From the IMG/VR virus record IMGVR_UViG_3300037174_000080, positions 1 to 32,430 of that record: a DNA stretch of 32,430 bases; one strand, 5' to 3'. Made by a program: the position numbers and the translations under genes. Shown one piece after another: positions 3,573-16,697 of this stretch; position 1 is the first letter of the stretch, and each line of letters begins with the position of its first letter. The DNA is from a virus. The notes under the pieces were generated by a model that was not told where the DNA came from, made no database searches, and worked only from the letters and a program-made list of their open reading frames with translations.

Positions 3573-3896
3573 TCACAATACACCCCATAGCACCTTGAAT
3601 GCGTAATGGATCGACTGATCTTGGTTGAATGTCAGTTTCCCGTCGCACTTGGCAAAGTCTGTCCAGAAGTGAACGACGAACTCAAGCGAGGCGAAGGTTA
3701 CAGACTGCGTGATGAGATAAACCATTCCAGCATGGATCATGGCATGGGCAAACATACACTGATACCAAGGAACGCGGGGAAGCGGGTTACGGTGGTTCTT
3801 CCCCTTGGCCAGAAAATTCCCTTGGAGCGGATAATCGCAGAGCGCGTGGCCAGCGAAAAGCAACAGGATTCTACTTAAGACCGCGTTCGATACCAT
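3573..3896 (-). CDS. DUF3307 family membrane protein
   Basis: 107 residues from the ATG at 3896, which has GGAGG six bases upstream. It shows the DUF3307 pattern: FAGHALCDYPLQ near the start, K...N...P...W......AHA.IHAGMVYLIT, then VVHFWTDFAKCDGKL and FNQDQSIHYAFKVLW at the C-terminus. Hydrophobic segments alternate with His/Asp-bearing turns, so it is an inner-membrane protein with conserved polar residues in or near the bilayer. DUF3307 proteins are frequent in phages and conjugative elements; their reaction is not known to me. It overlaps the upstream coiled-coil gene by 26 bases. Confidence 0.78.
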   Translation of the reverse strand: MVSNAVLSRILLLFAGHALCDYPLQGNFLAKGKNHRNPLPRVPWYQCMFAHAMIHAGMVYLITQSVTFASLEFVVHFWTDFAKCDGKLTFNQDQSIHYAFKVLWGVL

Positions 3897-4356
3897 CCAT
3901 AGCCTCCTGCACCGAAATCTCGCCGATTGCATTGATAATCGGACGCGCTTTCTTGAACCACCAATCGCTCACCGGCCCCGTCGCCTTGTCCAGCGCGGCC
4001 CGCAGTTGGGTGAGTTCGCGTTCGAGAATCTTTTCGTGATCGCTGGTCCAGATCATGCTGCCCCCGGAAAAGTCCGCTGAAGCTACTAGCTTCTCCAGTC
4101 GGTCAGCTTCCGCCTTCGCCGCGTCCCGCTGTTCTTTCAGCGAACCTATAGCCGTGTGCGCGGCTATTGCCATGTTCACGATGCTCCCGCCGGGTGCCAG
4201 CGCTCCCAGAATCTTTATGACTTCGTCGGACTCGCGTGTCGCCACGTCGAGATCCTTGGTGAGGGCGTCAAGCTTTTCGTGCAGGTCTATGGCATAATTG
4301 CAGCAGCAATTATCAAATTCGTCTCTCGCCACGTCTCTTTTCTCTTCGTCTGTCAC
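3871..4356 (-). CDS. Coiled-coil hypothetical protein
   Basis: 161 residues, GTG start overlapping the upstream stop (GTGA at 4353-4356) with AGGAGG upstream. The sequence is largely helical and charged, with two stretches of heptad character (residues ~27-50 and ~70-130, e.g. LKEQRDAAKAEADRLEKLV and LERELTQLRAALDKA). A Cys triplet (NCCCNY) lies near the N-terminus. No family recognised. It is part of the run 3871-5563 in which three genes are linked by four-base overlaps, so the three products are probably made together. Confidence 0.68.
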   Translation of the reverse strand: MTDEEKRDVARDEFDNCCCNYAIDLHEKLDALTKDLDVATRESDEVIKILGALAPGGSIVNMAIAAHTAIGSLKEQRDAAKAEADRLEKLVASADFSGGSMIWTSDHEKILERELTQLRAALDKATGPVSDWWFKKARPIINAIGEISVQEAMDGIERGLK

Positions 4357-4694
4357 CGCATCTCCTCCTTCATGCCGCGCTTCAGTTCGGCGAGGGCGGC
4401 TTTTTCCCTAGCAAGAATGCGTCTCATGGGGATAACGCCGCCGTATTCAGTCCCCAAAGGCTCCTGCCAAAATCTCAGGCACCCCTCACAGATGCGAATC
4501 TCTTCCTCCACCTGCCGAATCTGCTCGAGGCGCTGGCGGGTGAACTCGGCGGCATATTTCCAAGCCACCAATTCTTTCTCAAAACCTTGGAGGTCTACCG
4601 GCCAATTTCCGGGGCGAAGAGCGATGCTGAATCCCGTAAATGTACTCACTTCAACCCTTTTCCACACACTCCGCACATACATCTCGTCTGTCAT
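4353..4694 (-). CDS. Hypothetical helical protein
   Basis: 113 residues from the ATG at 4694, which overlaps the stop of the upstream gene (ATGA at 4691-4694) and has AAGGAG upstream. The N-terminal 40 residues look globular (VEVSTFTGFSIALRPGNWP); the rest is helical and charged, with one Cys pair region (IRICEGCLRFW). The first residues (MTDE) and ribosome-binding site closely resemble those of the downstream gene at 4356, a local sequence duplication. No function recognised. Confidence 0.65.
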   Translation of the reverse strand: MTDEMYVRSVWKRVEVSTFTGFSIALRPGNWPVDLQGFEKELVAWKYAAEFTRQRLEQIRQVEEEIRICEGCLRFWQEPLGTEYGGVIPMRRILAREKAALAELKRGMKEEMR

Positions 4695-5563
4695 CGCATC
4701 TCCTTCTCCACCGTGACCCGCTCTTCCTTGTGCGCATTCAGGCGGGCGAGGACGTCTTTCGTGAAACACTTGTACCAGGACTCATATCCCGGCCATTGCT
4801 CCACTTCATCCTGTAGCGCCGCTGACCACTGCTTGTCACGCTCTGCTTCTATGACAGGACGCGCTGCTGCGAGGGCGGCGGTCATCTGAATACGCTGCAA
4901 TTCATCCGTCCCTACGCTCTGCTGGACGGGCGCGGTGCACTGGGGCACGTTGATCTGCTCGGCTCCGGATGAATTGTTGCCTGCGCTCTGCGCGCCGGCC
5001 TGCGCGGCTTGCTTCTGTGCGTCCATGCGGCTCTCCCATTCGTCTGTGCGATCTCTTCCAAGCTGCTCCTGCGCGGGTGCGGGTTCCGTGCGCTGGGTGG
5101 CGCGTTGTAGCCGGTCAATCTCTGCCGCAATCAATGCCCCGGCCCTGATCAAATCCTGCGGAGGGTTCTTCGGCTTGAACCATTCATCATCCCACGGCCA
5201 GTATTTCTTGAACCACGTCCCTTTTAATGCAGGACCATCATAGGTAGCTTCGAGGGCGTAGGTGACTGCTGCCTCTACCATCTGACCAGCATCGTGTTCG
5301 TCGTCATGCTCAGCGGTCCATTTCTCGGATTCAATCTGGCGCTTGCGTTCCGCCGCGATTAACGCTGCGCCGTCCGTCGCCCCATCCGTGCGCTGGGTCA
5401 GAACAGCCTCGACTGCCGCCTGAGCGGAGTCTCGCCAATCATTTCTGTCATGCTCATTGAGATACACCCATTCGACAGTTTCAATGCGCCGATTAGGGCT
5501 CAATTCACGGTAACGACTGTAGGCCGCTATTGCGGCCCTGTCTACTTCTTGTTCACTCAGCAT
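4691..5563 (-). CDS. Phage protein with AAERKRQI..WTAEHDDEH / WPWDDEWFKP motifs
   Basis: 290 residues, AAGGAG upstream of the ATG at 5563. The protein looks modular. Residues ~1-55 carry a helical module (AAIAAYSRYRE ... WRDSAQAAVEAVLT); ~67-152 carry a motif pair common in phage proteins of unknown function, IAAERKRQIESEKWTAEHDD followed by YWPWDDEWFKP and AGALIAAEIDRLQR; ~155-220 is a low-complexity Gln/Ala/Pro linker; the C-terminus (AARPVIEAERDKQW ... ESWYKCFTKDVLARL) is another helical module. The family is widespread in phages, but I know no established activity. The conserved Glu/His/Asp cluster (AEHDDEHDAG) would suit metal or nucleotide binding, which is inference. Confidence 0.7.
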   Translation of the reverse strand: MLSEQEVDRAAIAAYSRYRELSPNRRIETVEWVYLNEHDRNDWRDSAQAAVEAVLTQRTDGATDGAALIAAERKRQIESEKWTAEHDDEHDAGQMVEAAVTYALEATYDGPALKGTWFKKYWPWDDEWFKPKNPPQDLIRAGALIAAEIDRLQRATQRTEPAPAQEQLGRDRTDEWESRMDAQKQAAQAGAQSAGNNSSGAEQINVPQCTAPVQQSVGTDELQRIQMTAALAAARPVIEAERDKQWSAALQDEVEQWPGYESWYKCFTKDVLARLNAHKEERVTVEKEMR

Positions 5564-5583
5564 CTCGTTTCTCCTTCTCCCGA

Positions 5584-5967
5584 TCAGGGGCGGTGCCTAA
5601 GTTCTAAATAACAAGTTTTGCAGGCGTCCTCGTTGCACTCATCAACTAAAACAGGACATGATGGATCGCTAGGTCGTCTTCCACAGAGACTGCAAATTCT
5701 AACCTTTGACCATCCTCCTTTGGGGCCGCGTATCTGAATTACCATAGAAGTTGGCCGTTCAATAACCGCTCTTCCTGTCGGTCCATATGAACATGACGAA
5801 TCGTCCGCGCGCTGCGCATCTTCAAGGTTCGTGAAGTACTGCCAATGCTTTGTTCCCGCTTTATATCTAAACTCAACACGGAAGGGACAATCCGTTCCGC
5901 GCACACTTTCAGATTGCGCAGCACGTTTCTGCAATTCATTTTCGATGATTAAATAATCGTTCGCCAC
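5584..5967 (-). CDS. Hypothetical protein with C-terminal zinc-ribbon-like cysteines
   Basis: 127 residues, GTG start at 5967 with GGAGGA upstream. The first ~75 residues form a mixed domain containing FRVEFRYKAGTKHWQYFTNLEDAQ; the C-terminal part holds CSLCGRR..DPSC and, after about ten residues, CNEDACKTC, a cysteine spacing consistent with a zinc-binding ribbon. No family recognised. Downstream neighbour in the operon is the three-domain protein at 4691-5563. Confidence 0.65.
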   Translation of the reverse strand: MANDYLIIENELQKRAAQSESVRGTDCPFRVEFRYKAGTKHWQYFTNLEDAQRADDSSCSYGPTGRAVIERPTSMVIQIRGPKGGWSKVRICSLCGRRPSDPSCPVLVDECNEDACKTCYLELRHRP

Positions 5968-5982
5968 CGTCGTCCTCCTTCT

Positions 5983-6002
5983 GCTCCCCGCCTAGCGGGA
6001 GC
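5983..6002. other. Intergenic hairpin
   Basis: GCTCCC (5983-5988) pairs with GGGAGC (5997-6002) around an 8-base loop, in the space between the pentapeptide-repeat gene and the next minus-strand gene. There is no T-tract on the minus strand, so it is more likely an RNA processing or stability element than a terminator. Confidence 0.4.
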
Positions 6003-6715
6003 TACTTCTTCATTCTCAACGCAGCAGCTTTGGCGAACTCAAACGCAGCCACACGCTCTTCGCAGCTTTCTGAGCCATCGTCGGGAAACTCTGATTCGTT
6101 ACTCTTGCGGATGCCTATAATTTCCCAGTCTTCAAGCGACTTCCACAGGCAGCCCATTCGCACCCACCGGGAGCCATCTTGAAAGAGAACGGCGTGGACC
6201 GTGTAGCGATAAAGCCCGGAGAAAATCCGCATCGATTTTATTTTCTTCCCGTTGAGGTTGGCACCGTCGAGGTTGGCACCGTCGAGTCTGGCACCGTCGA
6301 GGTTGGCACCGATGAGGTTGGCACCGTCGAGTCTGGCACCGTCGAGGTTGGCACCGATGAGGTTGGCATTGACGAGGCTGGCACCGTCGAGGTTGGCACC
6401 GATGAGGTTGGCATTGACGAGGCTGGCACCGTCGAGGTTGGCACCGATGAGGTTGGCATTGACGAGGCTGGCACCGTCGAGGTTGGCACCGATGAGGCTG
6501 GCACCGCGGAGGCTGGCACCGCGGAGGTTGGCACCGTCGAGGCTGGCATCGACGAGGTTGGCACCGTCGAGGTTGGCACCGTCGAGTCTGGCACCGACGA
6601 GGCTGGCACCGTTCAAAGACTTCTTCGCAGCCACGGCAGCGGTTATAAGTTTAAACACTGTCTTCGCGCCCTCAAGTGCAAAGATTACTTCGCCAAAAAC
6701 GTTTTTCAGTTTCAT
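6002..6715 (-). CDS. Pentapeptide-repeat protein with C-terminal conserved domain
   Basis: 237 residues, GAGGAGAG upstream of the ATG at 6715. Residues 1-32 are an N-terminal helix with hydrophobic faces; residues 33-157 are 25 uninterrupted pentapeptides of the A(N/S/R)LxG type, which fold as a right-handed quadrilateral beta helix about six turns long; residues ~160-237 form a separate domain (SGLYRYTVHAVLFQDGSRWVRMGCLW ... FAKAAALRMKK). Pentapeptide proteins of the Qnr/MfpA type mimic DNA and bind gyrase, but others act as membrane or adhesion scaffolds. The central array contains a 45-bp higher-order repeat. Modulating a host DNA-binding protein is a reasonable guess, not shown. Confidence 0.85.
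   Translation of the reverse strand: MKLKNVFGEVIFALEGAKTVFKLITAAVAAKKSLNGASLVGARLDGANLDGANLVDASLDGANLRGASLRGASLIGANLDGASLVNANLIGANLDGASLVNANLIGANLDGASLVNANLIGANLDGARLDGANLIGANLDGARLDGANLDGANLNGKKIKSMRIFSGLYRYTVHAVLFQDGSRWVRMGCLWKSLEDWEIIGIRKSNESEFPDDGSESCEERVAAFEFAKAAALRMKK
6245..6619 (-). repeat. Coding minisatellite: 25 x 15-bp pentapeptide units
   Basis: Tandem 15-bp units (plus-strand form GAGGTTGGCACCGTC with substitutions) fill residues 33-157 of the pentapeptide protein. Within it, 6350-6484 is exactly three copies of a 45-bp unit encoding NLDGA-SLVNA-NLIGA, evidence of recent duplication. Because the unit is a multiple of three, other frames stay open too and give spurious open frames on both strands. 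Confidence 0.92.
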
Positions 6716-6758
6716 CTCTCTCCTCTCGCCCGCCCCCTAGCGCGGGGATGCGGGGGTG

Positions 6759-6980
6759 CTAGTGCGTCCATTTTCCAATGCGCAGACATTCAACGATGTG
6801 TTTCGCCCAACCCTGTGAACTGAATTGCTTCCCGTCTTCCATAGTGACTGATTCGCTTTCGTCGCTGTAGAGGACACGTTCAACGACAACTCCATTCAGG
6901 CGAACGACGCCCTCGCCGAGATAGTTAGGGGGCGGAACATCGAGAACATCGCCAGTCAGATCGTTGCGAAAACTCGCCAT
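6759..6980 (-). CDS. Hypothetical small protein
   Basis: 73 residues, GAGGAGG upstream of the ATG at 6980. The composition is that of a small soluble beta-rich domain (VLDVPPPNYLGEGVVRLNGVVVE, SVTMEDGKQFSSQGWAKHIVE). The pattern of a short strand run followed by W-containing helix recurs in phage accessory proteins, but no family is recognised. The C-terminus GKWTH lies 43 bases from the pentapeptide gene start. Confidence 0.62.
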   Translation of the reverse strand: MASFRNDLTGDVLDVPPPNYLGEGVVRLNGVVVERVLYSDESESVTMEDGKQFSSQGWAKHIVECLRIGKWTH

Positions 6981-7028
6981 GCTTCCCTCCTCAGCTACGC
7001 CCCTGGGCGCCGGTTACTGCCGCGTGAT

Positions 7029-7403
7029 CTAGCGTATGAGCGCAGAAAGATAGTCTTTGCGACGGGCGGTTGTGCGCTTCACATTCTCCTCGCATCGCTC
7101 CATTGCCGCTGCAGTTTGAGCCTTGCATAATAGCGTTAATTCAACGGCTTCATTGAGGTCTGCAATTTCGCGGACCTGTTCTGCGCTTAGCGCACCCGCG
7201 ACCGGCTGCGGCTCGGTTGCCTTGACGCGCTTAGTGCCCTTGTCGCTGCGCGGTTTCTTCGCGGGCTTCGGGCTGTTTGCGGGGGTGGGATCTGCTGGGA
7301 CTGCCTGCGCGTGCAGGAGCGCGTTCACCTTCGCCTGCTTCTCCGCCAACTGCTCTTCCGTCATGTTCAATTCGTGCAATGCGTCTTTCTCGGATGTGGT
7401 CAT
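7029..7403 (-). CDS. Hypothetical protein with basic Lys/Pro-rich linker
   Basis: 124 residues from the ATG at 7403 (AGGAG upstream, rather long spacing). Two helical segments, ~1-32 (EKDALHELNMTEEQLAEKQAKVNALL) and ~70-124, flank a basic linker NSPKPAKKPRSDKGTKRVKA. The basic linker suggests nucleic-acid contact. No family recognised. Confidence 0.62.
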   Translation of the reverse strand: MTTSEKDALHELNMTEEQLAEKQAKVNALLHAQAVPADPTPANSPKPAKKPRSDKGTKRVKATEPQPVAGALSAEQVREIADLNEAVELTLLCKAQTAAAMERCEENVKRTTARRKDYLSALIR

Positions 7404-7407
7404 GCGT

Positions 7408-7689
7408 TTACTGCTCCTTCTTGAGACGCTTAATCTGCTTACGAGCCAGATCGAGCTTATGTTGTGTAGCCTGCACTGCAAGTTTCAGATCGTCATCCTT
7501 CGCCCAGTAGGTGCGGCATGGAGAGATGTGCTCGATAATGCAATCAATGGGAGCCCAAACGCTATAGGAATTTGGCTCGGATTTTTTGCCAAGGTAGATA
7601 CCAGTCGGGCGGAAATCCGCTCCATCGAGTTGGTTGTACTGCACTGAGAATCCTGTCGGGAATCTTACGGTTATCATCTGCGTATCCAT
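7408..7689 (-). CDS. Hypothetical protein with C-terminal helix
   Basis: 93 residues, AGAAGGA directly upstream of the ATG at 7689. The N-terminal half is beta-like (MITVRFPTGFSVQYNQLDG, then a WAPIDCIIEHI strand) and the C-terminal third is a long basic helix (LAVQATQHKLDLARKQIKRLKK) with heptad spacing. Similar architecture (short beta unit followed by coiled coil) is seen in phage accessory proteins. Function unknown. A stable hairpin lies just upstream of its ribosome-binding site (7701-7732). Confidence 0.66.
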   Translation of the reverse strand: MDTQMITVRFPTGFSVQYNQLDGADFRPTGIYLGKKSEPNSYSVWAPIDCIIEHISPCRTYWAKDDDLKLAVQATQHKLDLARKQIKRLKKEQ

Positions 7690-7700
7690 TCCTTCTTTCT

Positions 7701-7732
7701 GCGGGCGGCCAGTCTGAGGTCAAGCCGCCCGC
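7701..7732. other. Perfect 9-bp inverted repeat upstream of a minus-strand ribosome-binding site
   Basis: GCGGGCGGC (7701-7709) and GCCGCCCGC (7724-7732) are perfect complements with a 14-base loop. On the minus strand it sits about 12 bases before the ATG at 7689 and just before AGAAGGA. No T-tract follows, so a terminator is unlikely; control of translation or RNase processing of the long leftward transcript is the better guess. Confidence 0.55.
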
Positions 7733-7776
7733 GCTCAGTGCGCCCACGCTGCGGAGGTCAGACAGGGCGCGCGAGG

Positions 7777-8388
7777 TTATGCGGCTTCGTCCAGTAGCCG
7801 GTTAAGCTCCGCAAGCATGTCCACTTGCAAAAGCGCCGCGTTATCGATTAGGAACCGGTCTGCATCCTTTTCGTCAAGTACCCCCAATCCGGCCAGAATT
7901 CGTGGGTCCAATCCTTCTCGTGATGGACGCGCAGAGGCTTGCGTCTCTATCGGCGCCTTCTTAGATACGACTCTGTGCATAACCGTCTCCCATGCCTTCT
8001 TGCGTCCCTGAGGAACGGTGATCGGCATGTCCTCGGCAATGTCGGGCGAACCCCACACGCGAATGCAGTCCAACGTCTCGCGCCCGAACTTGGTTGTGGT
8101 CGGATAGATGGTGACGCGCTTATCGATCCATGAATGCGGGTCCGAACCGAACATGCGATAGAGACAGAAACCGTTCGTCTTGTTGAGGACGAGTTGGAGC
8201 GGGCGCTCCTTGATCTTGACCACCCATTCCGATTTCGTCTTATTGTTCTCGCCGATCAGATCCTCTCCCATGATTTGAATGATCGTGACCGTGACCTTCT
8301 GGCCCTTGAGCATGTCGGCCTTGAGGAACCTGCCTGGATACATCTCGGAATAACTTCCCGGTAACGCTCGTGCTGTTTCGTCTGCCAT
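7777..8388 (-). CDS. Phage DNA-recombination partner, putative ssDNA-binding (OB-fold-like) protein
   Basis: 203 residues, AAGGAG upstream of the ATG at 8388. It begins with a conserved phage pattern, YSEMYPGRFLKADML, then strands KVTVTIIQI, the stretch QLVLNKTNGFCLYRMFGSD, WIDKRVTIYPT and IRVWGSPDI, followed by a linker and C-terminal helices. This family is found beside exonuclease genes in many phages; the five-strand pattern suits an OB fold and a single-strand binding or annealing role. It is directly downstream of the PD-(D/E)XK exonuclease gene, which supports a two-component recombination function. The fold is inferred from the strand pattern only. Confidence 0.7.
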   Translation of the reverse strand: MADETARALPGSYSEMYPGRFLKADMLKGQKVTVTIIQIMGEDLIGENNKTKSEWVVKIKERPLQLVLNKTNGFCLYRMFGSDPHSWIDKRVTIYPTTTKFGRETLDCIRVWGSPDIAEDMPITVPQGRKKAWETVMHRVVSKKAPIETQASARPSREGLDPRILAGLGVLDEKDADRFLIDNAALLQVDMLAELNRLLDEAA

Positions 8389-8441
8389 TTGCTGCTCCTT
8401 ATGTGAGGGCTACGGCTTGCGCCAAGTGTGCCTCTTTGCGA

Positions 8442-9287
8442 TCAATCCTCTTCCATCGCAAACTCGTCTAAACTCTCCGTGTTCTCAGTCGCCCACGCCG
8501 GAATCATGAGGTCCGTTTCTTCCTCGTACTCTGCCGGCCACTTGTTCGTTTCCTCGCAGACGTTCAGGATCGCCTCTAGGTTCTGCCATTCTTCGAGTCC
8601 CTGCAAGATCACGTCCTTGGTGACGCGGTAGACCACGCTTTCATATGGCGGCTTCTTCTCAATCGCCAACAGCTTCATCTTCGGTTCGTGGCCGGTGAGC
8701 GCCTTGTACCCGCTCCAGTACATCGCCATTTTTATGTGATACCCGAGCCGGTACGATTGCGCTCCGAACATGCGCGGCTGGCAGGATACGCACGTCTTCA
8801 AGTCCGCGATCACATGCCCGTCGCAAATCTTGTCCACACGACCTTTGTAGCGGCGACCGCTCACGGGATCGGTCCAGAACATCGATACTTCCATCTTGCC
8901 CTTTGCATCGGCATAGTGGCGTATAGGTGCGTTAACCCGCGCTCCTGTGGCTGTTCCTACCATCGTGTCGCGTTCGGCCTTGGTCACGATCATCTTGTCC
9001 CAATGCGCGGCCCTGAACGCCTCCCACACGCTTCCCCGCCGAACCTTCTCGTTCTCCTCTTCGCCCCACACCGCGAAGTCCCCCACGCGCTCCGGTTCCA
9101 GAATCAGCCGGTGAATAGCCGTTCCTAGCTTCATGGCGTCTGTCGGCGGTTGCGGATGGTCATACATCCATGCGTAGTACATCGGGCTTCTGCGCATGTG
9201 GACCAGGCTCGAACCGTTGAGCGCATCCACTGCCCGATAGTCCTCGAAGTTCATCCCGTAAACGAATCCATCCTCGTGATCGTCCAT
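8442..9287 (-). CDS. PD-(D/E)XK exonuclease (RecE/Cas4-like, phage exodeoxyribonuclease VIII type)
   Basis: 281 residues from the ATG at 9287, chosen for GGAGGAAGC just upstream; the longer frame lacks a site. Motifs of the family are visible: LGTAIHRLILEP (His59), a Glu in GKMEVSMFW (Glu133), GRVDKI (Asp152), VIADLKTC (Asp162 and Lys164), and Y....KMAMYWSGY as the final helix with conserved Tyr. Length and order agree with the RecE C-terminal/YqaJ-like nucleases. Expected to resect linear duplex DNA 5' to 3' to expose single strands for annealing, with the gene at 7777-8388 as partner. Active-site residues are all present. Confidence 0.87.
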   Translation of the reverse strand: MDDHEDGFVYGMNFEDYRAVDALNGSSLVHMRRSPMYYAWMYDHPQPPTDAMKLGTAIHRLILEPERVGDFAVWGEEENEKVRRGSVWEAFRAAHWDKMIVTKAERDTMVGTATGARVNAPIRHYADAKGKMEVSMFWTDPVSGRRYKGRVDKICDGHVIADLKTCVSCQPRMFGAQSYRLGYHIKMAMYWSGYKALTGHEPKMKLLAIEKKPPYESVVYRVTKDVILQGLEEWQNLEAILNVCEETNKWPAEYEEETDLMIPAWATENTESLDEFAMEED

Positions 9288-9408
9288 GCTTCCTCCGTTA
9301 CTTCCCGCGCATCCTACTCCGTGTGAATCTTGCCCCGCCGTTGCCTCTTCAGCCGTGCGCACTATCCAGAGTGCCTCGTAGCAGGGTGTGGGCGGCGGGT
9401 CTCAGGCG

Positions 9409-9807
9409 TTACGCACCTGATGTCAATGTCGATTCCTCATCTTCGCTGAGGAGAGGTTCGCAGCGATACTCTGCAGGCTTCGCGGGGGCGATAAGCTCAC
9501 ACACCGCTGAGCGCTGTATATACACGTTGATGTCCAATCCGGTTGTGTCGTGTCCGATCGTAAGTTGAGTGTCGTCGTACTTTTTGGAGAATGGGCGCGG
9601 CAGCAACTTAACTAGAGCGAGGAACGCGTCCTTGTCTGTGTTATTCCAGAAGTGGATAGCGAAGTAGGGTTGAGGAAGTTCAAGGTCGGGCGCAACTTCA
9701 AGTGCATCCGCCAATATGCGTAAGTCCTTTGCAATTTCGCTTGCTTTAGCTTTTGCCACAGCATCCTCCGATGCGCCCGCTCCAGGGCCGGGTTCTATTT
9801 CAGCCAT
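9409..9807 (-). CDS. Hypothetical protein upstream of the exonuclease
   Basis: 132 residues from the ATG at 9807; the start overlaps the end of the upstream gene by 13 bases and the ribosome-binding site is weak, so coupling is likely. A Gly/Ala/Glu-rich N-terminus leads into a helix (AKDLRILADALEVA), strands around YFAIHFWN, DAFLALVKLL and LDINVYIQRSAVCELI, and an acidic tail. The order resembles small phage proteins with a single alpha/beta domain. No family recognised. About 120 bases without a gene separate it from the exonuclease. Confidence 0.65.
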   Translation of the reverse strand: MAEIEPGPGAGASEDAVAKAKASEIAKDLRILADALEVAPDLELPQPYFAIHFWNNTDKDAFLALVKLLPRPFSKKYDDTQLTIGHDTTGLDINVYIQRSAVCELIAPAKPAEYRCEPLLSEDEESTLTSGA

Positions 9808-10010
9808 GCTTTGATCGCCCACGGAAGAGCTTCCGCAAGCACTTCGACGAGATACCACACCATGCCGATGGCGAGGGTCCAGCGCATCCAACGCGGGAAG
9901 CTCCAGCGAATCTCCGCGTCCTCCAGCACATGTGCGTTTGGCATATCGCGGTCCGGCATCTCTTCGGCGGTGGGCTGCGGGCGGAAACGGGGTTCGTGCG
10001 AGGTGTTCAC
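9795..10010 (-). CDS. Small single-span membrane protein
   Basis: 71 residues, GTG start at 10010 overlapping the stop of the upstream repeat protein (GTGA at 10007-10010). A polar, Pro/Glu/Asp-rich N-terminal half precedes a hydrophobic stretch (WMRWTLAIGMVWYLVEVLAEALPW, residues ~41-64). Likely N-in or N-out single-pass inner-membrane protein. Function unknown. Confidence 0.62.
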   Translation of the reverse strand: MNTSHEPRFRPQPTAEEMPDRDMPNAHVLEDAEIRWSFPRWMRWTLAIGMVWYLVEVLAEALPWAIKAWLK

Positions 10011-11203
10011 GCCTTCACGAACTTTCCAGCCTTGAGCACATAGAACGTATCGGCCTTGATTTTCTTGCCGTCAACTTTTGCAGTTTTGACAGTTTCCACG
10101 TTGCCATCTTTGTCATACTCCGAAAGCACGATCCAGTTGCCTACTGCGGCCCTGGCTTCTCCGCTTTTACCAATCGCCGCTGCAATCGAATTTTTACCCA
10201 TTGCACTTGCGTGGGCAAAGTCGCCGCTGGTGGCGCTGTTGGCGGAGTCGCCGCTGGTGGCGCTGTTGGCGGAGTTGCCGCTGGTGGCGCTGTGGGCGGA
10301 GTAGCCGCTGGTGGCGCTGTTGGCGGAGTAGCCGCTGGTGGCGCTGTTGGCGGAGTCGCCGCTGGTGGCGCTGTGGGCGGAGTAGCCGCTGGTGGCGCTG
10401 TTGGCGGAGTAGCCGCTGGTGGCGCTGTTGGCGGAGTCGCCGCTGGTGGCGCTGTGGGCGGAGTTGCCGCTGGTGGCGCTGTTGGCGGAGTAGCCGCTGG
10501 TGGCGCTGTGGGCGGAGTAGCCGCTGGTGGCGCTGTGGGCAAAGTAGCCGCTGGTGGCGCTGTTGGCGGAGTCGCCGCTGGTGGCGCTGTGGGCAAAGTC
10601 GCCGCTGGTGGCGCTGTGGGCGGAGTTGCCGCTGGTGGCGCTGTTGGCGGAGTAGCCGCTGGTGGCGCTGTGGGCGGAGTCGCCGCTGGTGGCGCTGTGG
10701 GCGGAGTAGCCGCTGGTGGCGCTGTGGGCGGAGTAGCCGCTGGTGGCGCTGTGGGCAAAGTCGCCGCTGGTGGCGCTGTGGGCGGAGTTGCCGCTGGTGG
10801 CGCTGTTGGCGGAGTAGCCGCTGGTGGCGCTGTGGGCGGAGTCGCCGCTGGTGGCGCTGTGGGCGGAGTAGCCGCTGGTGGGAGCACTCTTCGCTTTTTC
10901 GAAGATGAACTTGATACCAAATTCGATTAGCGACTTCCAACTTAGTTCTGCGCCAATCTTGAGCGTCGAGCAGACGCGCTTGCTATCTGCCTCAGTTTGA
11001 TCGCTCACGCCATCCGCCTCAACTTCCGCGTAGCGATTCCCTTGCGCCAATCCGTAGTACGAGAGCGCATCAAGCGGGTTCTCAACGACATGGAAACCCG
11101 AGTTGCAAAGTGAGACTTTGCCCTTATGCGTAAATGTCTCGCCGAGTGCAAACTGATAGTCTCGGCACTTCAAATCCTTATCGAAACCTTTGAATGCCTT
11201 CAC
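10007..11203 (-). CDS. DUF7666-type domain protein with 25 nonapeptide repeats
   Basis: 398 residues from the GTG at 11203, which overlaps the upstream stop (GTGA) and has GGGAGG upstream; a longer frame reads through the upstream gene and is rejected. Residues 1-~105 match the domain KAFKGFDKDLKCRDYQFALG ... LCNSGFHVVENPLDALSYY ... RYAEVEADG seen in many phage and bacterial proteins (DUF7666). Residues ~109-333 are 25 consecutive copies of TSG(Y/D/N)(S/F)A(H/N)SA. The C-terminus (MGKNSIAAAIGKSGEARAAVGNWIVL ... KADTFYVLKAGKFVKA) is a conserved cap. The small-residue array with aromatic or polar positions every nine residues suits a beta-solenoid stalk. Role unknown. Confidence 0.82.
   Translation of the reverse strand: MKAFKGFDKDLKCRDYQFALGETFTHKGKVSLCNSGFHVVENPLDALSYYGLAQGNRYAEVEADGVSDQTEADSKRVCSTLKIGAELSWKSLIEFGIKFIFEKAKSAPTSGYSAHSATSGDSAHSATSGYSANSATSGNSAHSATSGDFAHSATSGYSAHSATSGYSAHSATSGDSAHSATSGYSANSATSGNSAHSATSGDFAHSATSGDSANSATSGYFAHSATSGYSAHSATSGYSANSATSGNSAHSATSGDSANSATSGYSANSATSGYSAHSATSGDSANSATSGYSANSATSGYSAHSATSGNSANSATSGDSANSATSGDFAHASAMGKNSIAAAIGKSGEARAAVGNWIVLSEYDKDGNVETVKTAKVDGKKIKADTFYVLKAGKFVKA
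10205..10879 (-). repeat. Coding minisatellite: 25 x 27-bp units
   Basis: Exactly 675 bases, 25 tandem copies of a 27-bp unit with no spacers. Variation is confined to three codons per unit: TAC/GAC/AAC, TCC/TTT and CAC/AAC; the rest is almost invariant at DNA level. All frames stay open through the array, which gives several long spurious frames on both strands. Confidence 0.95.
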
Positions 11204-11532
11204 CGCGCCGCCTCCCTCACCCACGCCAATATCTGCTGGTGGTACACGCTCAGTAGCACGACCGCAACCACGCCCGCGGTGAACAGCAGTCCAAACGCGA
11301 TCCCGCGAAAGAACAGCACACCATCTGGGCGCACGGTTGGCGCCGGATCTTCGGTGATGCTCAGGCGCTCGGCCACCTGGCGCATGGCCTCCGCCTTCGC
11401 CAGTTCGTATCTCGTAACTACTTCGACGCGGTCGCTCATCTCGGCCAGTTGCGTTAGTTCCCAAGGCGAGATTGTCATCGCGTTTTCATACTGCGCGAGA
11501 ATCCTGTCTACTTCGTCTTGTGTCCGTTTCAT
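11200..11532 (-). CDS. Single-span membrane protein with coiled-coil N-terminus
   Basis: 110 residues from the ATG at 11532, with GGAGGAAAG upstream. The first ~70 residues are charged and helical (KRTQDEVDRILAQYENAM ... RYELAKAEAMRQVAERL), followed by a hydrophobic span (FFRGIAFGLLFTAGVVAVVLLSVY, about 74-98) and a short basic tail. Its stop overlaps the start of the repeat protein. Orientation would place the coiled coil in the cytoplasm. Function unknown. Confidence 0.65.
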   Translation of the reverse strand: MKRTQDEVDRILAQYENAMTISPWELTQLAEMSDRVEVVTRYELAKAEAMRQVAERLSITEDPAPTVRPDGVLFFRGIAFGLLFTAGVVAVVLLSVYHQQILAWVREAAR

Positions 11533-11543
11533 ACTTTCCTCCG

Positions 11544-11639
11544 TTAACCCTTGTGCTTCAATAACATCCGCGATACGCACTCCGCCATAATGGCCACCGC
11601 GAGCGCGAACGCGACTACGGCGGCCTGGAGGGCGGTCAT
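11544..11639 (-). CDS. 31-residue membrane mini-protein
   Basis: Starts at the ATG at 11639 with GGGAG upstream, overlapping the stop of the upstream gene (ATGA at 11636-11639). The product MTALQAAVVAFALAVAIMAE..., with tail RMLLKHKG, is one hydrophobic helix with a basic end, giving N-out/C-in or hairpin-free single-pass topology. Such coupling and a good site argue for a real mini-protein, though it is too short for homology to be judged by eye. Confidence 0.5.
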   Translation of the reverse strand: MTALQAAVVAFALAVAIMAECVSRMLLKHKG

Positions 11640-11824
11640 GCTCTCCCTCTGATCATTCTCGCGCCCTGGTGCACAACCGTCAGGAGGATTGCGTCGGCGA
11701 CAAGTTGCGCGCAATACATAGCGAACGGCCAGTAAGCGCCCACATATGCCACTGCATACGCCCACACGCACTGCGCGAACCATGCGGCGTAGAGGTAGCC
11801 GCATTCCAAGTAGTAGGCGATCAT
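11636..11824 (-). CDS. Aromatic-rich small membrane protein
   Basis: 62 residues. ATG at 11824 overlaps the stop of the upstream gene (ATGA at 11821-11824) and its own stop overlaps the next start. The composition is unusual: many Tyr, Trp, Ala and Cys in two hydrophobic runs (YYLECGYLYAAWFAQCVWAY and FAMYCAQLVADAILLTVV), with a basic tail ARMIRGRA. Probably two short membrane helices. No family recognised. Confidence 0.58.
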   Translation of the reverse strand: MIAYYLECGYLYAAWFAQCVWAYAVAYVGAYWPFAMYCAQLVADAILLTVVHQGARMIRGRA

Positions 11825-12042
11825 TTCGCGGCTCCGGACTGCATGAGACGGTTAATTGTCGCCACCAGCTTAATTGTCGCCACCAGCGCGGCGTTTCGCT
11901 GCTCTAGGAAGGCGTTGCGCTCCTCCAGCACGGCGATTTTCTGGTCGCGCCACTTCACCGCCCCGCGAACGGTGGCGTAGCTGTAGACGCAGCCTTGCTC
12001 ATCTCCCTCTGCGAGCGTCGGCTCCATGCGCGTGTCTGGCAT
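11821..12042 (-). CDS. Short coiled-coil protein
   Basis: 73 residues from the ATG at 12042, which shares one base with the stop of the RHH gene (TGATG); a GTG three bases earlier is an alternative. The C-terminal half is a leucine-containing coiled coil (KIAVLEERNAFLEQRNAALVATIKLVATINRL). Immediate coupling to the RHH protein suggests joint production. A nearly exact repeat of the sequence TTAATTGTCGCCACCAGC near 11852-11886 encodes the VATIKLVATIN part. Confidence 0.6.
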   Translation of the reverse strand: MPDTRMEPTLAEGDEQGCVYSYATVRGAVKWRDQKIAVLEERNAFLEQRNAALVATIKLVATINRLMQSGAAK

Positions 12043-12173
12043 CACTTCGCCGCCGCTGTCAGAATGGATATGAGGAGCGCCCGAAAGCTGATGCCCTGCT
12101 TGACAGCCTTGATCTTCAGGGCCTTGTTTACTTCGTATGGAAATTCTCTGATTTGAAGCGTGTTCGTTTTCAT
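12042..12173 (-). CDS. Ribbon-helix-helix (Arc/FitA-like) DNA-binding protein, 43 residues
   Basis: Starts at the ATG at 12173 and stops at 12044-12042; the next gene starts in the TGATG overlap. The protein begins MKTNTLQIREFPYEVNKAL, with the alternating polar/hydrophobic strand (TLQIREFP) of RHH proteins, then helix A (YEVNKALKIKAVKQG), a turn with GIS, and helix B (FRALLISILTAAA). This is essentially a minimal RHH fold, which would bind DNA as dimers. It is the first gene of the leftward operon and ends 12 bases from a perfect inverted repeat (12185-12209), so autoregulation is likely. Arc-type repressors are known in P22. Alternatives are an antitoxin-like antirepressor; no toxin partner is recognisable. 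Confidence 0.72.
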   Translation of the reverse strand: MKTNTLQIREFPYEVNKALKIKAVKQGISFRALLISILTAAAK

Positions 12174-12184
12174 GGAAATAATCA

Positions 12185-12209
12185 TTGCATAGCTTTCAAT
12201 TCTATGCAA
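12185..12209. promoter_or_regulatory. Operator-like perfect inverted repeat in the divergent control region
   Basis: TTGCATAG (12185-12192) and CTATGCAA (12202-12209) are perfect complements around nine bases. It lies 11 bases upstream of the RHH gene and 73 bases before the first rightward gene, within an AT-rich stretch. The same outer arms with the same 13-base inner gap recur at 15725-15749. A dimeric repressor or activator site for the divergent promoters is the simplest reading. No sharp -35/-10 pair could be assigned. Confidence 0.68.
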
Positions 12210-12254
12210 CACTTATTTTGAATTATTTTTTAGGGATGGGAATCAATGCACCCC

Positions 12255-12282: not shown

Positions 12283-12597
12283 ATGCTCACAGCAATAATT
12301 AATACGCGCTCAAAGGGCCTCATAAAGTGGCCAGCATATGCTGTCAAGGGTCACTGGGCGATTACCGTGCCACTTAAACAGATATGTGGAGCAGAGCCTG
12401 ATTTTACGGCGGACTATGCAATCGTGTCCCATCAGCCAACAGGGTACCGCGTGAGCGCTTGCAAGCGCGCGAAGGATTACACAAAGCGCCTCGAAAGACT
12501 GAATGCCCTGTTTGGTGACTCGAAGACTGTGAAAGGTGTTCTGCGGAAATATGCCAAGTTCTCAAAAGCGGACAAGCATTTTGTGGGCAGAATTTAG
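12283..12597 (+). CDS. Hypothetical small basic protein, first rightward gene
   Basis: 104 residues, strong AAAGGAGAG upstream. The sequence is basic and mixed alpha/beta (AIINTRSKGLIKWPAY ... GYRVSACKRAKDYTKRLERLNALFG ... VLRKYAKFSKADKHFVGRI). Being the first gene after the divergent control region, in the position of an early regulator, makes a nucleic-acid binding role plausible, and the basic C-terminus supports that. No family recognised. Confidence 0.66.
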   Translation: MLTAIINTRSKGLIKWPAYAVKGHWAITVPLKQICGAEPDFTADYAIVSHQPTGYRVSACKRAKDYTKRLERLNALFGDSKTVKGVLRKYAKFSKADKHFVGRI

Positions 12598-12628: not shown

Positions 12629-13699
12629 ATGACTGATTTGAGAGCGCCATTTCCATGGTTTGGCGGAAAATCGAAGATTGCCGAACTCGTGTGGGAGCGA
12701 TTCGGCGACGTCGCGAACTATGTTGAGCCTTTTTTCGGATCAGGAGCGGTTTTGCTCAATCGTCCTTCGGAACCGGGAATTGAGACGGTAAACGATCTAG
12801 ACTGCATGGTGGCAAACTTCTGGCGCGCATTGCAGCACGATCCTGATGCCGTGGCCGATGCCGCCGATTGGCCGGTGAATGAGGCAGATCAGCACGCGCG
12901 GCATTTATGGCTCGTTTCGCAAGAACAGTTCCGCGAACAAATGAAAGTTGACCCGGAGTTTTATGACGCAAAGATTGCAGGGTGGTGGGTATGGGGACAA
13001 TGTATCTGGATTGGCTCGGGCTGGTGCTCGGTGCAGCTCCCGCACCTCGGGAACGCGGGCAGAGGGGTAAACAGGCAGCTCCCGCACCTCGGGGACGCGG
13101 GCAGAGGGGTAAACAGGCAGCGACCGCACCTCGGGGACGCGGGAACGGGCGTACACCGTAAGCTCCCGCACCTCGGGGACGCGGGAACGGGCGTACACCG
13201 TAAGCTCCCGCACCTCGGGAACGCGGGAACGGGCGGCGACGAATGCCTAAGCGACCGCACCTCGGGAACGCGGGAATTTTTGTTTCAGTACATGAACGAA
13301 CTAGCCAAACGATTGCGTCGCGTGCGGGTATGCTGCGGAGACTGGTCCCGAGTTTGCGGCCCTACGCCAACGGTCAAGCTTGGTACTACGGGAGTCTTCC
13401 TCGATCCGCCATACCTTGACGGGCGCACAGATGCCCTCTACAGCACCGATAGCCTCACGGTGGCGCACGAGGTCAGAGAGTGGGCAATCGCGCATGGAGA
13501 CGACGCGCTAATCAGGATTGCGCTCTGCGGATACGAGGGGGAACACGATATGCCGGGATCGTGGGATTGCGTGGAGTGGAAGGCGAGAGGCGGCTATGGT
13601 TCTCAGGGCAAGAACCGCGCCCGCGAGAACTCCTCAAAGGAGCGGGTTTATTTCAGTCCGCATTGCTTAAGATCGGCGCAGGAAAGACTTTTTGCATGA
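12629..13699 (+). CDS. DNA N6-adenine methyltransferase (Dam/D12 class) with internal 14-residue repeats
   Basis: 356 residues, TAGGAGAG upstream. D12-class features are FPWFGGKSKIA (residues 8-18), the SAM-binding motif YVEPFFGSGAVLLN (31-44), NDLD (55-58) and the catalytic DPPY (259-262), and the C-terminal ARGGYGSQGKNRARENSSKERV region. Residues ~136-205, between the SAM motif and the catalytic motif where the recognition domain lies, are five copies of a 14-residue unit (xLPHLGxAGxGVxR). Target sequence unknown. In phages such enzymes protect DNA from host restriction or mark their own genome. The ORF reads through the repeat with no stop. Homologous enzymes with the same repeats are familiar in environmental phages, so the array is a family trait. 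Confidence 0.88.
   Translation: MTDLRAPFPWFGGKSKIAELVWERFGDVANYVEPFFGSGAVLLNRPSEPGIETVNDLDCMVANFWRALQHDPDAVADAADWPVNEADQHARHLWLVSQEQFREQMKVDPEFYDAKIAGWWVWGQCIWIGSGWCSVQLPHLGNAGRGVNRQLPHLGDAGRGVNRQRPHLGDAGTGVHRKLPHLGDAGTGVHRKLPHLGNAGTGGDECLSDRTSGTREFLFQYMNELAKRLRRVRVCCGDWSRVCGPTPTVKLGTTGVFLDPPYLDGRTDALYSTDSLTVAHEVREWAIAHGDDALIRIALCGYEGEHDMPGSWDCVEWKARGGYGSQGKNRARENSSKERVYFSPHCLRSAQERLFA
13034..13275 (+). repeat. 42-bp coding minisatellite inside the methylase, with one out-of-frame copy
   Basis: Five 42-bp units occupy 13034-13243 (boundaries at 13076, 13118, 13160, 13202). A partial sixth copy, CGACCGCACCTCGGGAACGCG and flanking bases (13251-13275), keeps the DNA sequence but is read one base out of frame relative to the others (product ...SDRTSGTREF instead of ...RPHLGNAG). 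The sixth copy matches unit 3 best. Confidence 0.88.
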
Positions 13700-13908: not shown

Positions 13909-14644
13909 ATTGTATTCGGAATTTTCAGACGATCCTAAAGTGCAAATGATGAGTGAAGCTCTCCAGCGCCGCCTGGTGATGCTGTTCTGTTCCCGCTGTA
14001 AAGATGAAACGTTACATGAAACGGAGCGGGCGTTTCATTGGCGGATAAGTGACGAGGAACTCACTAAAACCAAGGCTGCTTTCATCGAAAAAGGATTCAT
14101 CGATGAAGATTGGAATCTCCTTAATTGGAACCGCCGTCAATTCTTATCAGATAGTTCTACTGATCGTGTTCGCCGCTTTAGACAAACTAAGAAACAGGAT
14201 GAAACGTTACATGAAACGGTTATCCCCGTTACTGTAACGGCACCAGAACAGAACAGAACAGAAACAGAGCAGATACAGAACAGACCAGAAGACACCCCCG
14301 GCAATCAAAGTCCCGATAGCGTAGACACCCGTTGCCTCTCAGAAAGCGTCGGCATCTTCGGGATGAAAGAGCAGGCAGGGATGAACCGGCTCTTGGCGGT
14401 GCACATGAAGGAAACCGGCCGGAACGTCGAGACTGCAATTGAGCACATGATCGCCCGATGGGTGGAATACCAGCAGGCCTCCCCGTTGCTGGAATGGTCT
14501 TACGGATCGAGTTACAAGTTTTTCATGTCTGGGAATTGGGATGCTCCGCAGACCTGGCCGCGTGCGGATGCGAAGTTGAGCCCCAAAGAAGCGGCCCGTA
14601 GAGCATTTGAAGAAAGGGTGTGTGACGACGATGAAGCCCAGTGA
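13889..14644 (+). CDS. Phage replication initiator / helicase-recruiting protein (winged-helix N-terminus)
   Basis: 251 residues from the ATG at 13889 with AGAGGGAAG upstream. Residues 1-~95 match a winged-helix domain common in phage replication proteins (WFRLYSEFSDDPKVQMMSE ... RRLVMLFCSRC ... LTKTKAAFIEKGFIDED..LLNWNRRQ, then STDRVRRFRQ). Residues ~100-150 are a polar linker (PEQNRTETEQIQNRPED), and ~155-230 are a helical DnaD/DnaT-like module (KETGRNVETAIEHMIARWVEY ... SYKFFMSGNW). This order, DNA-binding domain, linker, partner-binding domain, is that of lambda O-type initiators. The gene carries repeats and a palindrome in the linker region that look like an origin. Confidence 0.76.
   Translation: MANPWFRLYSEFSDDPKVQMMSEALQRRLVMLFCSRCKDETLHETERAFHWRISDEELTKTKAAFIEKGFIDEDWNLLNWNRRQFLSDSSTDRVRRFRQTKKQDETLHETVIPVTVTAPEQNRTETEQIQNRPEDTPGNQSPDSVDTRCLSESVGIFGMKEQAGMNRLLAVHMKETGRNVETAIEHMIARWVEYQQASPLLEWSYGSSYKFFMSGNWDAPQTWPRADAKLSPKEAARRAFEERVCDDDEAQ
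14003..14290 (+). other. Candidate replication origin embedded in the replication gene
   Basis: ATGAAACG occurs at 14004, 14016, 14199 and 14211 (two pairs 12 bases apart, in two 22-bp direct repeats at 14003-14024 and 14198-14219) and once inverted at 14031-14038. Directly after follow a DnaA-box-like TTATCCCCG (14220-14228, 7 of 9 to TTATCCACA), the perfect palindrome CCGTTAC-T-GTAACGG (14226-14240) and six CAGAA units (14244-14290, four contiguous). Position inside an initiator gene parallels the lambda ori in gene O. The pattern is seen; function is inferred. Confidence 0.5.
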
Positions 14645-15232: not shown

Positions 15233-15540
15233 CCGCTCGCAAAGACCCAGCCAGGCCCCAGAAGGTCGGGTGCAAACTCAACCCCGTGCGGGCTGTGCTC
15301 ATGGCGCAATTTGGGCTAACCTACGCGCAGACGCGCAAGGTCAAAAACATAAAGGTATTACTTGACCAGCTTATGCACTGTGCAGACGATGAGGCGAGGC
15401 GCATAATCCTGCGAACGTCGGCACCGATGCCAGCGCACCCGCCGGTAACATGGCGCGCATCTGCCGCCAAGCCGGTTGTGCGCGCGACCGTGGCGGAAAT
15501 GATGCGGCTGTCGGCGAAGGGGGGGGCGCGAAGGGCATGA
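15229..15540 (+). CDS. Hypothetical basic protein
   Basis: 103 residues, coupled at both ends by ATGA overlaps. It is strongly basic and Ala/Arg rich, with a central helical part (AVLMAQFGLTYAQTRKVKNIKVLLDQLMHC). Likely a nucleic-acid binding protein on composition alone. No family recognised. Confidence 0.62.
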   Translation: MTARKDPARPQKVGCKLNPVRAVLMAQFGLTYAQTRKVKNIKVLLDQLMHCADDEARRIILRTSAPMPAHPPVTWRASAAKPVVRATVAEMMRLSAKGGARRA

Positions 15541-15719
15541 AACCATCGACAACGCCGCAAGCCTACCTCGCCATCCACCAGATCTTTGAGCTGGCCAAGG
15601 CAGAGAAGTATCACAAAACATTAGAGTTAAACGCAATAAAAGCCGCGCGCAAGAAACGAATACTTGCAGAGCAATCCAAGAATGTGCTAGGTTCAACACG
15701 TAATTCGCGCGAAAGGTGA
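15537..15719 (+). CDS. Hypothetical small basic protein, end of early rightward operon
   Basis: 60 residues from the ATG at 15537, overlapping the upstream stop. Helical and basic (AYLAIHQIFELAKAEKYHKTLELNAIKAARKKRILAEQ). Ends just before the non-coding control region at 15720-15977. No family recognised. Confidence 0.6.
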   Translation: MKPSTTPQAYLAIHQIFELAKAEKYHKTLELNAIKAARKKRILAEQSKNVLGSTRNSRER

Positions 15720-15977
15720 TAAACTTGCATCCAATGTGCAACGATGCAAAAGACGTCCACAATCCCGCGAGTGCAAGTCCGCACGACCGTACACTTGGTC
15801 GAGACGCGCGGTGCACTCGTCCTGCACTCTCAGCGCATTGCGATCTACCCGGAGAAGCGGGCGTCGTGAGTGGGTCGCTGAAAGAAGCGCATTGACACGC
15901 TGAAACAAACGCGTTACCGTACCGAATAGAGCTATTTTGCTCTCGTCCTCCGGGCACGCAGCCCGCGACCTCCCAGA
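15720..15977. other. Non-coding control region ahead of the packaging operon
   Basis: 258 bases without a convincing gene. It holds the inverted repeat TTGCAT-N13-ATGCAA (15725-15749), an 8-bp inverted repeat CGAGTGCA (15768-15775) / TGCACTCG (15812-15819) with another TGCACTC at 15823-15829, a perfect -35-like TTGACA (15892-15897) without a good -10 (TACCGT 17 bases on), and a small hairpin AGAGC/GCTCT at 15928-15943. The late promoter probably lies here. Confidence 0.6.
15725..15749. promoter_or_regulatory. Second operator-like site TTGCAT-N13-ATGCAA
   Basis: TTGCAT (15725-15730) and ATGCAA (15744-15749) are separated by 13 bases, the same arms and same total span (25 bases) as the inner-arm geometry at 12185-12209. 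It stands directly after the last early gene and before the packaging operon. Shared control by one regulator is the simplest explanation. The inner bases differ from the first site. Confidence 0.6.
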
Positions 15978-16280
15978 ATGAGCCAAGACACAAGAATCCT
16001 CAATCTCACACGCGGGTTTCGCCTCAAGCGGAATCAAGCCCTGCGCGCCATTGAACAATGTGCGTGCGCCTGGGTAGAAATCAACGTGTCAGTGCGCGAC
16101 TTAACCATCCCAGAATCAATACAGGCGCGCAATAAGCAAGCAGCGGAACGGGAGTTGCTCGACTGCGCTGAGCTTCCAGGAATCACCTTCAAGCCGCCAA
16201 TCGGCGCACAGGCTGCTTACATGATCGAGCGGCGAACGGCATTCGAGGCGGATAAGTTTTATACCGAGGCTATTCAGTGA
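15978..16280 (+). CDS. Hypothetical protein before small terminase
   Basis: 100 residues, weak ribosome-binding site before the ATG at 15978. Helical N-terminal half with AIEQCACAWVEIN and IQARNKQAAERELLDCAEL, then KPPIGAQAAYMIERRTAFEADK. No family recognised. First gene after the control region, three bases before the small terminase gene, so part of the late operon. Confidence 0.6.
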   Translation: MSQDTRILNLTRGFRLKRNQALRAIEQCACAWVEINVSVRDLTIPESIQARNKQAAERELLDCAELPGITFKPPIGAQAAYMIERRTAFEADKFYTEAIQ

Positions 16281-16283
16281 CGT

Positions 16284-16697
16284 ATGGCGATCAAGTGGAC
16301 AGCGCAAATGGTTGCAACCTGTGAGGATGAGATTCTTGCTGGCACTCCTATTGCGCAAATCGCTGAGTTAATTGGCATTAGCGAGCCTAGCTTTTACAGG
16401 CACCGCTTAGAGGACGAAGACTTTGAGAGTGCTATCGCGCGCGCGCAAGCAGCGGCAAGCGAGGCTGAGATTGACCGCACCAACGCGCTAGCTAAGACTG
16501 CAACGGTCGATAACTGGCAACTCGTTCAGTTTCAATGCCGCCAGGCTCAATGGACTGCTGGGAAGCGCAAACCGAAGAAATATGGCGATAAGGTTGAGCA
16601 GTTCATCAGCGGTCCGGGCGGCGGTCCGATTCAGTCTGCAATCAGCGTGGAGTTTGTGAAGACGGGTGACAGTGGAACCGCGCAAAGTAAAGGCTGA
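16284..16697 (+). CDS. Terminase small subunit
   Basis: 137 residues. The N-terminus is a helix-turn-helix of the small-terminase type (EILAGTPIAQIAELIGISEPSFYRHRLEDEDFESAI), followed by a long helix (RAQAAASEAEIDRTNALAKT) and a central stretch (WQLVQFQCRQAQWTAGKRKPKKYGDK) with the WxxGKR-KYGDK pattern common in this family. It overlaps the large subunit start. It recognises packaging sites and stimulates the large subunit. Confidence 0.85.
   Translation: MAIKWTAQMVATCEDEILAGTPIAQIAELIGISEPSFYRHRLEDEDFESAIARAQAAASEAEIDRTNALAKTATVDNWQLVQFQCRQAQWTAGKRKPKKYGDKVEQFISGPGGGPIQSAISVEFVKTGDSGTAQSKG

Follow-up and report, generated by a model that had tools for sequence, protein, structure and literature searches.

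In phage P22, Arc and Mnt form a regulatory switch. Arc has 53 residues and CopG has 45 (PMC4803016), and both proteins consist of little beyond the ribbon–helix–helix (RHH) fold. In this fold, also named MetJ/Arc, two helices come after a strand that pairs in a dimer. FitA, an antitoxin of the FitA/VapB kind, is tethered to DNA through FitB (PMC3920265), and the relO operator contains two adjoining 12-bp half-sites (PMC2812701). Small Arc-like regulators of 53–72 amino acids (aa) also occur in type V-K CRISPR-associated transposons, where they are encoded divergently from the adjoining genes, and a leaderless regulator message has been shown for CvkR, with lambda cI and Tn1721 tetR named as further leaderless cases; the passages on the Arc-like V-K regulators state no leaderless message for them (PMC9938897).

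Here we describe a 43-aa protein whose sequence is FitA-like and which resembles Arc in size and, probably, in action, a new and very small member of a familiar type of phage switch. It is encoded in the window, by which we mean the whole stretch of DNA analysed, a complete virus record of 32,430 bases. With the FitA/VapB antitoxins (FitAB, 2bsq; VapB12, 7e4j) it shares the RHH core, as judged by profile and model (29–36% identity in structural alignments), and a repeat in its own promoter region; it differs in lacking a tail to bind a toxin and in that the window shows no gene for a PIN toxin, and unlike FitA it would have to bind DNA without a partner. P22 Arc and CopG resemble it in being little more than the RHH fold and are both among the top structural matches, but identity in the structural alignments is 19–24% and no Arc family is found in Pfam at E values up to 1. 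The Arc-like regulators of type V-K CRISPR-associated transposons are likewise small, carried by mobile elements and divergent from adjoining genes, whereas the window has no cas12k context. CvkR has in common with the window gene the leaderless message that we propose for the latter, but it is a MerR-type regulator. Among the papers surveyed, mainly as titles and beginnings of abstracts, we recognized none on a free-standing FitA-like phage RHH repressor, leaderless or not.

The phage record and its leftward block

According to sequence searches, the window encodes a P22-like portal, a terminase and a major head protein as well as an exonuclease VIII-like protein; no match to a tyrosine integrase was obtained. 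The portal relatives in annotated phages were all (92 of 92) less than 60% identical to the window portal. Leftward frames run from approximately 3573 to 12173 and the rightward block begins at 12283, with a 109-bp intergenic stretch between them. The original prediction placed a minimal RHH gene at the head of a leftward operon of about 20 genes; the 43-codon frame is indeed the first in the run of leftward frames, and the figure of 20 is a fair tally of mechanical frames, but not of proven genes. The genes of the leftward block on which the analysis bears are the following.

12042–12173, minus strand: 43-aa FitA-like RHH gene, stop codon included (Pfam PF22513, E = 3.3e-5; purifying selection relative to the viral locus L006; RHH-like model)
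11821–12045, minus strand: next leftward frame, 74 aa from a GTG that overlaps the RHH stop codon (GTGATG)
8442–9362, minus strand: exonuclease VIII-like gene (phrog_412, E = 2.3e-61; DUF3799, PDDEXK-like)

Neither the 74-aa next gene nor the 104-aa divergent gene had a useful family in Pfam, PHROGs or NCBIfam. The homology of two related loci, L010 and L015, to the window stops at approximately 12285–12305 and restarts at 14629, and the rightward neighbour of the RHH gene is therefore not constant.

Several genes of the record carry tandem arrays. The D12 (adenine) methylase gene at 12629–13699 contains an in-frame 42-bp array at 13033–13235 with 4.8 copies, compared with 5.6 copies in the otherwise near-identical L012, and the sole DNA match in annotated phages, to the DNA adenine methylase gene of Mycobacterium phage prophiGD11-3 (approximately 13137–13241), overlaps this array. 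On the minus strand, the frame at 10007–11464 has a 27-bp array at 10211–10881 (24.9 copies, encoding nine-residue repeats) after a DUF7666 domain (E = 3.3e-33), and a pentapeptide-repeat protein of the leftward block (6002–6715; PF00805, E = 2e-40) is accompanied by a 45-bp DNA array at 6249–6612.

A 43-codon gene under purifying selection

In four near relatives (L002–L005) all 129 coding bases of the RHH gene are identical to those of the window. L006, from a viral contig of 66,681 bases, encodes an RHH protein that is 65% identical over the full 43 residues; here 33 and 34 of the 43 first and second codon positions are identical to the window against 18 of 43 third positions, which places the gene beyond chance, and pN and pS amount to 0.228 and 0.709, respectively. 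Judged by this pattern of substitution, the 43-codon gene is real and under purifying selection, and the span originally predicted, 12042–12209, contains the gene together with the repeat described below. Two longer readings were rejected. A 56-aa reading from the GTG at 12212 would add 13 codons without codon-phase conservation (9, 8 and 11 of 13 identical at the three positions) and would place the entire repeat within the gene. A 47-aa reading that would begin with the ATG at 12185 lacks a start codon at the corresponding place of L006.

A predicted FitA-like RHH core without a toxin-binding tail

The protein matched the Pfam profile PF22513 (FitA-like RHH) with 24.2 bits, short of the curated cut-off of 27 bits, and we therefore term it FitA-like rather than a curated member of PF22513. 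All ten members of alignment A3 matched this profile at E values up to 0.1, and an alignment of ten short relatives matched VapB12 (7e4j) at E = 7.6e-9. PHROGs and NCBIfam returned no useful family for the 43-aa protein. The monomer model (mean pLDDT 86.9) has an extended N terminus followed by helices at residues 13–26 and 30–42. In a structural search with this model RHH chains occupied the top of the list, with Z scores of 5.1 and below; chains of Arc, StnY, VapB12, CopG and FitA aligned over 36–37 residues (Z 3.8–5.1), Arc chains coming first in a tie with CopG, StnY and VapB12. Foldseek returned no match at E values up to 0.001, which we take as a consequence of the very short chain. The profile match, the VapB12 match of the family alignment and the RHH-like model agree with the prediction that the protein is little more than the RHH fold, and the structure prediction proposed as a check on it gave an RHH-like monomer. 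The label ‘Arc-type’ fares less evenly: it holds as an analogy of working and for the leading, though tied, Arc chains, but the search of RHH families with the 43-residue sequence gave the FitA-like match, and none of the Pfam matches at E values up to 1 was to a family named Arc, which makes the sequence FitA/VapB-like.

Stop and start codons that overlap are usual in toxin–antitoxin pairs. The overlap between the RHH stop codon and the start of the next gene, like the FitA/VapB-like sequence, would also suit a remnant of an antitoxin, or the antitoxin of a FitAB/VapBC-type pair whose toxin, unrecognized, is the neighbouring small gene. We consider this very unlikely, given that the modelled protein terminates where its second helix ends, with no tail for toxin binding, that PIN toxins (PF01850) had no match in the window at E values up to 1, with control matches in 10 of 14 genomes, and that the 74-aa next gene is without a family and does not resemble the HNH endonuclease-like gene that follows in L006. 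We favour, as reasonably probable, an autorepressor: a minimal FitA-like RHH protein, free of a toxin, at the head of the leftward early operon.

An inverted repeat over the putative promoter

The features upstream of the RHH gene that would serve such an autorepressor are as follows.

12185–12209, no strand: site 1, perfect inverted repeat TTGCATAG-N9-CTATGCAA, candidate operator, unchanged in L002–L005 and differing in L006 in its left arm (gene strand)
12204–12209, minus strand: −35-like hexamer TTGCAT, which forms one arm of the repeat and ends 30 bases before the ATG; L006, L030 and L152 have TTGACA there
12181–12186, minus strand: −10-like hexamer AATGAT with TGC before it, 7 bases before the ATG; it scores 9, a value that 6 of 240 control frames attain as well

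The perfect inverted repeat expected beside the gene is thus present, 11 bases from the ATG. The prediction that the gene ends within 12 bases of the site is right as to distance, but the end that adjoins the site is the 5′ end of the gene. The repeat alone is weak evidence of anything beyond chance: the window contains 7 perfect repeats with arms of at least 8 bases and spacers no longer than 12, for which 15 shuffles gave a mean of 6.5, and 96 of 3,000 local shuffles placed one in the 109-bp intergenic stretch.

This near-chance rate of repeats with 8-base arms, as well as the difference of one arm in L006, speaks for a reading in which the repeat arose by chance or only belongs to the promoter, and the target of the protein lies elsewhere, in host genes or at other phage sites. 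We judge it unlikely, since conservation of the stretch upstream of the gene exceeds the neutral expectation and the same layout recurs at a second site. Within the 36 bases upstream of the ATG, 26 are identical in L006, a level reached at 1 of 12,132 places of the L006 locus, and this although synonymous sites between the window and L006 are near saturation. Together with the intergenic position, the conserved upstream stretch and the second site make site 1 credible as more than a chance repeat. Because L006 has TTGACAAG in place of TTGCATAG, what is conserved is the other arm and the promoter-shaped frame, not the repeat itself; a shorter TTGCA-N5-TGCAA could be the true operator in L006. 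Exact copies of the site 1 pattern in L009, L013 and L014 were dropped, as the frames next to them are different ones and no RHH gene was seen there.

The window layout, TTGCAT, 17 bases ending in TGC, AATGAT and 7 bases to the ATG, has no ribosome-site motif. In L006, L030, L039, L147/L152 and L146 the corresponding order is TTGACA, 16–18 bases ending in TGn, a −10-like hexamer, 6–7 bases and ATG. A promoter score of at least 11 at 5–8 bases from the ATG was found for 5 of 12 RHH genes and 0 of 240 control frames; the window, at 9, lies below this score, and its layout taken alone is suggestive only. The search that gave L152 and L146 required TTGACA 24–54 bases before the ATG; the two are hence not independent of that hexamer, but the distance to the ATG, left free in the search, was 28, 30, 30, 30 and 33 bases among five distinct RHH genes. 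Three of the nine non-window genes not chosen by TTGACA (L006, L030, L039, L032, L027, L034, L047, L028 and L049) have a score this high; upstream of the RHH gene in L028 and L049 no such layout is present. A further point against the layout is that L006 has AAGGA, which it could use instead as a ribosome site, at the −10 position, and motifs resembling ribosome sites also occur in L032, L027, L034, L047 and L028. By eye, L147/L152 has a perfect repeat of its own over the promoter, GCATTTGTA-N8-TACAAATGC, with arms 17 bases apart as in the window and in another register.

The promoter layout and the upstream conservation, both read from sequence, support the proposal of an operator-like site on the putative promoter of the RHH gene itself. 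As the ATG follows only 7 bases after the −10-like hexamer, the mRNA may start at or next to the ATG and be leaderless. The feature most worth keeping is this fused promoter–operator with a probable leaderless start, common to several of the short relatives.

Proposed mode of action

As the gene starts beside a site over its own likely promoter, the protein most likely turns down itself and the genes that follow. We suggest that the 43-aa protein dimerizes and that its dimers bind the repeat at 12185–12209, where they would occupy two half-sites within 25 bp, a size like that of the two adjoining half-sites of relO (PMC2812701). Because the repeat is superposed on the core promoter, one arm forming the −35-like hexamer and the other abutting the extended −10, bound protein would cover the −35 and −10 regions and block RNA polymerase. 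Repression would then cap the level of the protein and that of the coupled leftward early genes, probably including the exonuclease VIII-like gene, and the message would begin leaderless at or next to the ATG. The protein might also act on the divergent rightward promoter.

Short relatives and their neighbours

Several other short FitA-like RHH genes, mostly viral, have the same promoter layout. Of 14 viral stretches, L025, L026, L029 and L031 were dropped because they are not RHH frames, and L010, L011, L012, L015 and L033 repeat known loci. Among 70 genome stretches we kept L039, L047 and L049 as short RHH genes and dropped L042, L054 and L081 (of antitoxin length or longer) and L080 (early stop); the remaining 63 were judged not to be RHH frames. 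The search with TTGACA yielded 11 stretches, comprising six RHH genes (five distinct), two without an RHH frame (L150 and L153) and three that gave no row (L148, L149 and L151); L146, at 79 aa longer than the others, was used for the promoter count only. Relatives of the RHH protein were not found in annotated phages (E up to 1), in plasmids (E up to 0.1) or, by means of a two-row alignment, in genome contigs. Among bacterial genomes, 27 of 297 in one phylum, counting the centre genome, and 5 of 369 from one class matched the same profile at E values up to 1e-6, mostly through longer frames; the bacterial frames listed all have at least 72 residues between stops, except that of L039’s own genome.

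The RHH gene is followed by an exonuclease-like gene in L152 and L030; in L006, genes for an HNH endonuclease-like protein and for a Sak4-like annealing protein come after it. Counting the exonuclease VIII-like gene of the window, short viral RHH genes lie near recombination genes at four loci, a tally made without a control, and we treat the association as a lead. In L006 the gene after the RHH gene (6168–6548) joins the HNH endonuclease-like domain to a second FitA-like RHH stretch (residues 78–111, E = 4.6e-4). In L047, from a deltaproteobacterial MAG, a 24-bp perfect palindrome, CAATGATAACAT/ATGTTATCATTG, lies at approximately 4255–4280, directly after TTGACA and upstream of a 48-aa RHH gene.

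A second site ahead of the terminase genes

The window has one further site of the same layout, a number reached by chance in 10 of 2,000 shuffles of the rest of the window, and a small frame begins within it.

15725–15749, no strand: site 2, TTGCAT-N13-ATGCAA, the same 25-bp layout as site 1, kept in L012 and L015 and absent in L010
15744–15869, plus strand: possible 41-aa frame, a candidate only, whose ATG falls within the right arm of site 2; read by eye, the frame is open in L015 too

Site 2 is situated after the rightward early genes and before the terminase genes, and three relatives span this junction: in L012 the site is unchanged, in L015 both arms are kept with one change in the spacer, and L010 has a different block. 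A scan for consensus promoters over 15400–16300 gave no promoter-like site; by eye, TGATAAACT directly upstream of site 2 (15717–15725) could be an extended −10.

The original prediction extended control by the RHH protein to the late operon through this second site. As a two-site early/late switch, the protein would act through site 1 to repress the leftward operon and through site 2 to repress the late operon, for packaging and structure. The rarity of the layout in shuffles and the position of site 2 ahead of the terminase genes are consistent with such a switch, as is L015, which keeps both arms and in which homology to the window resumes just before the site. On the other hand, L015 is 93% identical there, so that keeping 12 bases says little, L010 encodes an RHH protein identical to that of the window and yet has no site 2 at the junction, and the scanned region offers no consensus promoter. 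The site itself is real and of the same layout, and late-operon control through it is weakly supported; we put the two-site switch forward tentatively, as possible. Within the autorepressor reading favoured above, action at the second site is the least certain part.

More broadly, the locus could belong to a recurrent, unnamed class of toxin-free FitA-like RHH repressors of 43–54 aa, mainly of phages, in which operator and promoter form one element, the message is leaderless and the gene lies ahead of phage recombination genes, with the protein of the window in addition timing late genes through a second operator. This proposal in its entirety is doubtful. If the autorepressor reading is right, the protein would be among the smallest natural RHH repressors, with 43 residues compared with 45 for CopG and 53 for Arc (PMC4803016), a phage would be using an antitoxin-type DNA-binding core without a toxin, and the fused promoter–operator with its start codon at the transcription start would be a searchable layout for overlooked phage regulators.

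At 4550–4740 of L010 and 3010–3225 of L015 there is another small frame (MQPKTKPV...), preceded by TTGACA and a GGGTGTACCCTAAAAGGG motif. It occupies the place of the window’s site 2 in L010 and lies directly before site 2 in L015, and the region has the appearance of an exchangeable, regulatory-looking block.
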